From: an uncultured delta proteobacterium
GTDB taxonomy: Bacteria; Bdellovibrionota_C; UBA2361; CAIXSY01
Length of the DNA: 38,819 nucleotides
Assembly: GCA_903922175.1 (NCBI GenBank)
Contig: CAIXSY010000338.1
Coordinates: 1-38,819, forward strand
Direction: 5' to 3'
The notes beneath the pieces were generated by a model. The model saw nothing but the letters and a program-made list of their open reading frames with translations. It did not search any database and was not told the DNA's origin. Shown here piece after piece: positions 4,107 to 35,077 of the stretch; positions within the stretch are counted from its first letter, which is position 1, and each line of letters starts with the position of its first letter. The position numbers were made by a program, and so were the translations under genes.

Positions 4107-4426
4107 GTAACTGCTCAATAACCCCGGGCGGGCTAATAATTCGCGAGTGTGGTCGTCGTCGGCAGGAGTAGTTGCTCAATAAGTGTGGGTAACTCTAAAT
4201 CTTGAACATGAACTGGAACTATTCCCGATTCCTGCCCCCTTCGACTCGGTCGCAATCTCCCTCGCTCAGGACCGAAGCCTGCCCCTTATCCTCTTGATTG
4301 GAATAGGGAAAGGAGCGGTTCGAGTGCAAGTCAAGCAAGTTCCTCTTGCCCGGGGTTATTGAGCACTTCCCACTCTACGACCACGAGGGGGAATTATTAC
4401 GCTGCCCGGGGTTACTGAGCAGTTAC
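4107..4426. repeat. Family B compound element, copy 2, with ~85-bp compound inverted termini
   Basis: GTAACTGCTCAATAACCCCGGGC ... GCCCGGGGTTACTGAGCAGTTAC plus nested inner ends at 4168 and 4370. Confidence 0.9.
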
Positions 4427-6139: not shown

Positions 6140-6310
6140 GTAACTGCTCGCCCCTAATCGGCTAACGCTGACGTCAAACGTCTTACGCCGGACGTAAAAC
6201 GTCGACGTTGAACGTCCGGCGTTTGACCTTAGACGTCAGCGTCATCGGTTCTGAGAAAGGGCATTTTTCTGGAGTTACTTGCATAGTTTACGAAGGGAGC
6301 GAGTAGTTAC
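6140..6310. mobile_element. Family A hairpin MITE, copy 1 (171 bp), TSD CATTAATA
   Basis: Ends GTAACTGCTCGCCCCT / GGGAGCGAGTAGTTAC; perfect 8-bp TSD at 6132-6139 and 6311-6318. Confidence 0.92.
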
Positions 6311-10079: not shown

Positions 10080-10236
10080 GTAACTGCTCGCCCCTCATCG
10101 GCTAACGCTGACGTCAAACGTCTTACGCCGGACGGAAAACGTCGACGTTAGACCTTAGACGTCAGCGTCATCGGTTCTAGAAATGGTCATTTTGTTAGGA
10201 ATATACGCACAGCTTGACGAAGGGGCGAGTGGTTGC
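10080..10236. mobile_element. Family A hairpin MITE, copy 2 (157 bp, internal arm deletion), TSD 6/8
   Basis: Ends GTAACTGCTCGCCCCT / AGGGGCGAGTGGTTGC; flanks GCCGCTAG and GCCCTTAG. Confidence 0.88.
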
Positions 10237-17277: not shown

Positions 17278-17449
17278 GTAACTGCTCGCCCCTAATCGGC
17301 TAACGCTGACGTCAAACGTCATACGCCGGACGTAAAGCGTCGACGTCAGACGTCCGGCGTTAGACCTAAGACGTCAGCGTCATCGGTTCTCAACAAGGGT
17401 CATTTTGTTAAGGCTATATGCACAGCTTGACGAGGGGGCGCGTAGTTAC
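17278..17449. mobile_element. Family A hairpin MITE, copy 3 (172 bp), TSD AAAAGGAG
   Basis: Ends GTAACTGCTCGCCCCT / GGGGGCGCGTAGTTAC; perfect 8-bp TSD at 17270-17277 and 17450-17457. Confidence 0.92.
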
Positions 17450-18329: not shown

Positions 18330-18351
18330 CCCACACTTATTGAGCAATTAC
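18330..18351. repeat. Family B solo right end
   Basis: CCCACACTTATTGAGCAATTAC, reverse complement of the inner family B end at 4168. Confidence 0.65.
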
Positions 18352-20964: not shown

Positions 20965-21010
20965 GTAATTGCTCAAAAACCCCGGAGAGATCTTACCCTA
21001 GCCTTGGTTG
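20965..21010. repeat. Family B solo left end
   Basis: GTAATTGCTCAAAAACCCCGG followed by family-like CCTAGCCTTGGTTGTGG. Confidence 0.65.
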
Positions 21011-24289: not shown

Positions 24290-24423
24290 TATTTGTTATA
24301 TGAGTGATGAAACATGACGAGCAACGGTTCACTCATAGTGCTCAGTGGGACCAACCGGCCCGATTCCAATACTCTTCGCGTGGCGCAACGGGTATTCTCA
24401 CTGCTCGATCGCCGTCTTGTATT

Positions 24424-24513
24424 GAAAAGTAGGGACGCTACCGACTTATTTGTGAAAAGTAGGGACGCTACCGACTTATTTGAGGAAAAGTAGGGACGCT
24501 ACCGACTTATTTG
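24424..24513. repeat. RAYT-associated left REP-like array, 3 copies of GAAAAGTAGGGACGCTACCGACTTATTTG
   Basis: Copies at 24424-24452, 24454-24482, 24485-24513, identical. Confidence 0.95.
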
Positions 24514-24555
24514 CATTTTTAAGCAACTTTTCACCGAAGTTACCGAAAATAGTGC

Positions 24556-25239
24556 ATGGCGCGCACTGCAAGAGTAGTTATTCCCGGTATTCTTCATCAC
24601 ATTACTCAACGAGGTAATAGAAGGGAGGATGTCTTCTATGATGACGAGGACAAGTTTTTCTTCATGGACCGGCTTCTCTCATACTCAGCTCGAGCTGGGC
24701 TGTTGTTAGCTTCTCACTGCCTCATGACTAATCACACACACCTACTTGCAGTGCCGGAAGAGAAGGATAGCCTTGAGCGCACCTTTAAGCCCCTTCATTT
24801 GGTTTACTCACAATATCTTAACAAGAGATTCAATCGAACGGGGATAAACTGGCAAGGGCGCTATTTCTCAAGCCCGCTGGATGACGAGCACTCTTGGTAC
24901 GCATTTCAGTACGTCGCGCTAAATCCAGTGAAGGCCGACATAGTAAGCAATTTTCAGGAATACTCATGGTCAAGTGCTCGAGATCTGCTCTCCAATAGGC
25001 CCCAGTCCGCGCTCACCGCCGGTCCCAAATGGCTCTCCATGGGGCATGATGCCCTTGCGCAACTTCTAGACCACGACACGTATCAGCCAAACGAAGTAGC
25101 TTTCGAGCACCTAGAAAAAATGGGTGCAAGAAACCTTCCAGTCGGTTCGGATGATTTTATCGCGCGACTGGAGAAAGAAACCGGACGCACGCTTCGGCCT
25201 AAGCCAATAGGTCGTCCGAGAAAGGTGGAAAGTAGGTAG
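24556..25239 (+). CDS. REP-associated tyrosine transposase (RAYT, Y1_Tnp/TnpA_REP)
   Basis: HHITQRGNRRE, LMTNHTHLL (HUH), QGRYFSSPL, YVALNPVKADIV; C-terminus GRPRKVESR*. Confidence 0.92.
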   Translation: MARTARVVIPGILHHITQRGNRREDVFYDDEDKFFFMDRLLSYSARAGLLLASHCLMTNHTHLLAVPEEKDSLERTFKPLHLVYSQYLNKRFNRTGINWQGRYFSSPLDDEHSWYAFQYVALNPVKADIVSNFQEYSWSSARDLLSNRPQSALTAGPKWLSMGHDALAQLLDHDTYQPNEVAFEHLEKMGARNLPVGSDDFIARLEKETGRTLRPKPIGRPRKVESR

Positions 25240-25392
25240 CGTCCCTAATTTTCCCCAATTTTCCCTAATAGGTCGTCCGAGAAAGGTGGAAAGTAGGTAG
25301 CGTCCCTAATTTTCCCTCGAGAAAGGTGGAAAGTAGGTAGCGTCCCTAATTTTCCAAGAAAGGTGGAAAGTAGGTAGCGTCCCTAATTTTCC
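25218..25392. repeat. RAYT-associated right array, 4 copies of GAGAAAGGTGGAAAGTAGGTAGCGTCCCTAATTTTCC (inverted relative to the left array)
   Basis: Copies at about 25218-25254, 25280-25315, 25319-25355, 25357-25392. Confidence 0.95.
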
Positions 25393-25416
25393 AGCAGCGC
25401 GCGCACGCGCGCTGCT
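25393..25416. repeat. GC-rich hairpin at the end of the amidohydrolase gene
   Basis: AGCAGCGCGC-GCAC-GCGCGCTGCT. Confidence 0.85.
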
Positions 25417-31880: not shown

Positions 31881-32101
31881 TTTTAGACCAAACACTGGGC
31901 ACTGAGTGGGTAGGTAGAACCAAGTGTACTGCCCAATAACCCCGGGTAGCTTAATAATTCGCGGTCGTGCTCGTAACGTTCACGGGTCGTAACTGCTTGA
32001 TAGCACAGCAGAAGAATACAGTTACGCGAAGGGCAGGAAAAAGGACACGAAAACCACGAAATAAATTGCTGAGTATTCACCTGGAGTTAGCTCCAGGTAA
32101 A

Positions 32102-32275
32102 GTAATTGCTCATTAACCACGGGTGAAAGTGCCTAGATCCTAGTCCTGGTCATGGTTCTGGTCTTAAGTCATAGTCGTGTTCTTGGCCGCAATCATTGAC
32201 TAATTGACCAGGATTTAGGACCAGGACCATAACCAAGACTAAGACAAGATTTCCCCGGGGTTATTGAGCAGATAC
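32102..32275. mobile_element. Family B hairpin element, copy with 8-bp TSD CAGGT(A/G)AA
   Basis: GTAATTGCTCATTAACCACGGG ... CCCCGGGGTTATTGAGCAGATAC; flanks CAGGTAAA / CAGGTGAA. Confidence 0.88.
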
Positions 32276-32583
32276 CAGGTGAATACTCAGCAAATACTTT
32301 TGCGTCCTTCGCGTCCTGTTTCGTGGCTTTCGTGTAACTGAATTCCTTCCGCTAGTTCAATTAGGCCCCGTGAACGCTTACTCGATGTCGCGGTCGAAAA
32401 GTGTGCTGAATCGGCTACCAGCACCACGACCAGGAGCACGCGCACGGACTCACGGGTTGATGAGTAGTAACACTCTGCGCGCCCTTGTGCAGCTACCCCA
32501 GCTTGACAGAAGCCCCAACATCGTATACCTTCTTCGCTCTAACATGCCTAGCGCGCTATAGATTTTTCTTAGGTGGCAGTTTT

Positions 32584-34880: not shown

Positions 34881-35077
34881 GTAACTGCTCAATAAACCCG
34901 GGGAATCAAGTTGTTCAAGCGTCTCTGCCTCAGTCCTCGTCACCGTCGTAGTCTTGGCCATGGTCGTACCCGAATTCAATAAGTCCGAGTAAGGGATGTC
35001 GTGGTCGTGCTCCTGGTCGACCACGAGCACGACCACGTTCGCGAATTATTAAGTTACCGGGGATAATAAGCAGATAC
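34881..35077. mobile_element. Family B hairpin element
   Basis: GTAACTGCTCAATAAACCCGGGG ... TACCGGGGATAATAAGCAGATAC; internal CGTGGTCGTGCTC/GAGCACGACCACG stem. Confidence 0.82.

Follow-up and report, generated by a model that had tools for sequence, protein, structure and literature searches.

Three nested, probably IS66-type MITEs in a delta proteobacterial draft genome, the innermost very probably guided to its target by a short one-sided motif

IS66 elements have been reported with flanking 8-bp repeats (PMC3281130), and a review of bacterial MITEs names neither IS66 nor nesting (PMC10969869). IS30 shows dual targeting: it prefers to enter either certain hot-spot sequences or its own ends (PMC9333248). 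In the open literature that we searched, no paper described a target motif for IS66-derived MITEs or dealt with IS66 target choice. Here we analyze a contig of an uncultured delta proteobacterium (38,819 nucleotides, hereafter the window) on which a MITE of a group we call family B interrupts a palindromic MITE, H, which itself lies within a third element. We consider it very probable that these are three nested non-autonomous IS66-type elements and that the family B insertion was guided by a short motif on one side of the target. Nested MITEs are of a known kind; the targeting rule is apparently undescribed. Features of the locus are given in Table 1.

Table 1. Coordinates in the window of the nested elements and of the family B insertion site
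Feature	Position	Strand	Basis
Outer MITE, left segment with degenerate end GTACTGCCCAATAACCCCGGG	31926-31972	.	Alignment across join with 32382-32471
Left part of H (H 1-130), including duplication copy 1	31973-32101	+	86% identity to H 1-130
Left stem arm of H palindrome, TTGCTGAGTATTCACCTGGAG	32066-32086	+	Perfect complement of CTC + 32276-32293
Target motif GTTA, lying 4 bp outside the duplicated 8-mer	32086..32089	+	Motif counts
Loop TTAG	32087-32090		Sequence reading
CTC between loop and first duplication copy	32091-32093		Sequence reading
Target duplication copy 1, CAGGTAAA	32094-32101	+	Sequence, duplication survey
Family B MITE, 174 bp, ends GTAATTGCTCATTAACC / GGGTTATTGAGCAGATAC	32102-32275	+	~40 genomic relatives; duplication CAGGTAAA/CAGGTGAA
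Target duplication copy 2, CAGGTGAA, then TACTCAGCAA	32276-32283	+	Sequence, duplication survey
Right part of H (H 123-232), end CCCCGTGAACGCTTAC	32276-32381	+	93% identity to H
Outer MITE, right segment with degenerate end TTGATGAGTAGTAAC	32382-32471	.	Alignment across join with 31926-31972

A sequence-only reading of this DNA had placed the insert in a stem arm of another palindrome, proposed that the insertion duplicated an 8-mer, and held that excision of 32102-32275 with one duplication copy restores the empty site. The letters bear this out: CAGGTAAA and CAGGTGAA flank the insert, and when the flanks are joined and the CAGGTGAA copy is kept, 21 bp pair without mismatch into a stem closed by a 4-nt loop. 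The same reading had called for a search for uninterrupted copies of this site, and would have been undermined if the two halves were never contiguous. In the organism's own genome they are contiguous many times over: the best match of the joined 140-bp sequence is uninterrupted (C269, 97% over 139 bp), as are matches at 94% on C23, C14, C101 and C7 and those at further loci, and the uninterrupted palindrome is present in about a dozen full-length copies. Given these uninterrupted matches of the joined sequence, and some 40 relatives of the insert in the same genome, the arrangement is not due to chance.

The host had further been described as a larger hairpin element with GTTAC ends. It is indeed a larger hairpin element, but it does not stop at GTTAC: its outer limits are 31973 and 32381, where the ends read GTAASCGTTCACGG...CCGTGAACGSTTAC. 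Whole H is a palindromic element of 232 bp, and comparison of conserved flanks among host copies gives its ends as GTAASCGTTCACGGGGCC and GGCCCCGTGAACGSTTAC. Several dozen H copies or fragments occur in the genome, with exact 8-bp duplications around H on C251 (TAATTTAG), C231 (TCGACAAG) and C14 (CAATTACC), and near-matching ones on C101, C375, C307 and C269; around the window copy at best a weak duplication remains (TCGTGCTC/TCGATGTC, 5/8 alike). H was not found in the relatives' genomes searched, an exact search of other species in the genome collection for its 19-bp core returned nothing, and an Rfam search of the window was without match.

Both elements are MITEs: they are short (174 and 232 bp) and non-coding, have terminal inverted repeats and many copies, and make an 8-bp target duplication. 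REP/REPIN elements are 20-40-bp palindromes associated with a Y1 transposase and have no target duplication; the 8-bp duplications, 174-232-bp units and GTAA ends place the present elements outside that class. Elsewhere in the window (24423-25393), a Y1 (IS200-like) transposase gene at 24556-25239 is flanked by two kinds of tandem repeat, GGGACGCTACC.. and ..GGTAGCGTCCC, which suggests a separate REP-like system; no link between this transposase and the nested MITEs was found. Three copies of another repeat family, GACGTC-rich palindromes, lie at 6140-6268, 10080-10208 and 17278-17406.

The sequences flanking H, once joined, align continuously with four other elements (L141, L182, L136, L156); H therefore sits in an older MITE, which spans ~31926-32471 and adds a third level of nesting. 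At the join, L141 is without exactly 8 bp, as would follow from the absence of one copy of the duplication, while the other aligned elements are without 2 bp, within a variable GTCGTG repeat tract. A target duplication of the outer MITE itself was not found.

The family B insert is a member of a private burst of IS66-type MITEs. With up to one mismatch allowed, the wider family's end (GTAAYTGCTCAATAA) occurs 549 times in the organism's own genome (reversed-pattern control, 0) and 0-5 times in each of 114 other genomes searched, near the control level. Clear 8-bp duplications flank 27 wider-family elements, 15 of them exact and 12 with one mismatch; shifted controls, run on a smaller first element set, gave no pair with 0 or 1 mismatch in 777 comparisons. 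The window alone has 13 ends of this family in 38.8 kb vs. 0.18 expected, those away from the nest including ends at 1387-1711, 18337-18351, 20965-20979 and 34881-35077. Also, a 264-bp relative at 4107-4426 (duplication CACTCTTC/CACTCTAC) has another element end just past it, and is probably another nest.

Exactly the same base of H (H 123-130) is interrupted in four, probably five, copies, by differing elements. In addition to the 174-bp family B insert of the window (C338), there is a 277-bp element on C371, a similar insert on C239 (only one junction is on the contig), the end of a decayed IS66 transposon on C316 (TnpB, E=2e-29; TnpC fragment, E=1e-8) and the right junction of an 88-bp MITE on C311. 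Most of these hits are separate events, since the inserts differ and on C371 both duplication copies (CTGGTGAA) include a base peculiar to that copy of H. A second hit site lies near the H ends (GTTCACGG/CCGTGAAC), with a duplication on C95, an insert junction on C249, and left junctions with rearrangement on C311 and C62.

A motif outside the duplication recurs at these and many other targets. When 4-mers were counted upstream of 318 distinct element ends, drawn from ~1.35 Mb of retrieved sequence, GTTA stood out at -16 (4 bp outside the 8-bp duplication) with 44 cases, representing 39 distinct contexts, vs. 2.1 expected (p=7e-43). Contigs with ends of this kind and H loci are over-represented in that sample, which is offset by a genome-wide search in which the gap from GTTA to the element end was left free: a gap of 12 accounts for 56 of the 100 matches listed, with 10 the next best. 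Among the 27 elements with clear duplications, 13 have GTTA 4 bp outside the duplication, on one side and never on both; this one-sidedness indicates that GTTA belongs to the target, not to the element. The preference is partial, as about half of the clear-duplication elements are without GTTA.

With targets that are themselves element ends removed, C-22, A-21, A-20 and A-17 are enriched too, and within the sample an element occurs at the predicted distance from 10/77 TCAR-N2-R-GTTA sites, compared to 52/6245 GTTA sites overall. No consensus is evident within the 8-bp duplication, and no GTTA-type motif for H's own insertions was found among 60 ends. Both hit sites in H fit the motif, the loop reading GTTA GCTC [CAGGTGAA] and the H end reading TCAATTAGTTA GGCC [CCGTGAAC]. 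The sequence-only reading had included neither GTTA as the likely determinant of the site, nor the same-base hits in other H copies, nor the third nesting level. On another contig (L098 17991-18364, G000:C186), two adjacent MITEs each lie within the GTTA spacing from the end of the other, an arrangement predicted if elements can insert next to existing ends.

Repeated insertion into one palindrome could also mean that the hairpin shape of H, as a cruciform or single-stranded, draws insertions while the sequence is incidental. Palindromic repeats are known targets of some insertion sequences (PMC1525189), and the stem at the site is indeed strong (z of about -9 at the two reconstructed sites). 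When reconstructed empty sites were folded, however, the 25 targets outside the first H site proved mostly hairpin-free (z near 0, extreme -3.7), and many of these share GTTA-N4. The second hit site near the H ends has the same motif, and in each of the four hits with a surviving loop the insert occupies the arm expected from the motif. We therefore regard targeting by shape as unlikely; the site is likely chosen from sequence with no need of a hairpin, which may still contribute.

The shared insertion point would need no targeting at all if a MITE-bearing H had formed once and been copied as a unit. Similar inserts at the same place on C371 and C239 are what such copying would produce, yet the inserts at this base otherwise differ (174-bp B, 277-bp type, IS66 end, 88-bp MITE), and the private base in both C371 duplication copies shows that this insertion arose in its own H copy. 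Copying is disfavored for at least three of the five same-base hits, and as a general account is very unlikely. A slightly smaller chance still is given to the junction being an assembly artefact. The genome is a draft of 432 contigs (4.79 Mb) in which repeats can be misjoined, which weighs against any nested reading, and several contigs end within H copies. An accidental join between repeat copies would nevertheless have to produce an 8-bp duplication, bring together left and right H subtypes that are found together in other copies, give junctions built in the same way at several other loci, and leave an outer element that closes up once H is removed.

In the preferred reading of three nested elements, the 232-bp H entered the outer MITE and the 174-bp family B MITE then entered H. 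The nesting itself is seen directly in the sequences, as are the target duplications, the recurrent hit sites and the motif enrichment; the mover and its reading of the motif are presumed. An IS66-type DDE transposase acting in trans would have mobilized family B and its kin with GTAAYTGCTCAATAA ends, generating 8-bp target duplications. Targets would be selected on one side by a sequence of roughly TCAR-N3-GTTA-N4-[8-bp target], with GTTA as its strongest part, presumably read directly by the transposase. H would be hit repeatedly at the same bases because the motif is present in its hairpin loop and near its ends.

The presumed parentage rests on comparison with IS66 elements in this and other genomes. 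In another genome, an intact IS66 ends in GTAAGCGCTCAATAAACC and is flanked by an 8-bp duplication, and IS66 copies from two further genomes combine GTAA ends with exact duplications of 8 bp; the combination of GTAA-beginning ends and an 8-bp duplication is also found in the MITEs. Within the draft, the element on C316 has one end, GTAACTTCTCAAT, with tnpB and a truncated tnpC next to it, the other element end being missing. The sole intact IS66 of the genome (L083 1600-5600, G000:C429), with duplication GGATTTTG and an extra reading frame between tnpB and tnpC, has unusual outer ends that differ from those of the MITEs (GGTTCCTCACC), and its right end has CCCACACTTATTG in common with many of the MITEs. 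An intact transposase with exactly the MITE ends was not found, nor was a convincing transposase-sized element between MITE ends in the sampled DNA. We infer that the mover was an IS66-type transposase, now decayed or absent from the draft.

A more tentative possibility is that the transposase picks its targets by recognizing a sequence that imperfectly repeats its own end (..AGTTA) and lies at a set distance from the cut. With real ends removed, target motif and element end are alike at 3.5 of 10 bases beyond GTTA, vs. 2.4, while C-22 and A-21 of the target motif differ from the element end. If this were the case, each insertion would make new preferred targets, and elements would accumulate in nests and clusters. 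The motif rule accounts for nesting at identical bases and predicts where the next copy will land; with the motif at a constant offset outside the 8-bp duplication in dozens of distinct insertions, target choice can be put to a direct test.

Compared with described systems, the elements resemble IS66 insertion sequences (ISPpa5a, ISPpa7; PMC3281130) in their GTAA-beginning ends and 8-bp target duplications, and an intact IS66 elsewhere shares the GTAAGCGCTCAATAA end with them, but they are gene-free. GTTA is also not a general IS66 rule, being absent, by inspection, at nine IS66 insertions in two other genomes (0/9). Like other bacterial MITEs (PMC10969869), they are short and non-coding, with terminal inverted repeats, target duplications and many copies, and they differ in their three-level nests and in the motif outside the duplication. 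As in IS30, some targets are element ends, here MITE ends (GAGCAGTTAC); IS30 belongs to a different family and makes 2-bp duplications, whereas the motif here has a fixed 4-bp offset from an 8-bp duplication. Finally, repeated insertion at one position of a palindromic repeat is shared with the insertion sequences that target REP palindromes (PMC1525189), while the likely cause here is a motif that also marks palindrome-free targets.
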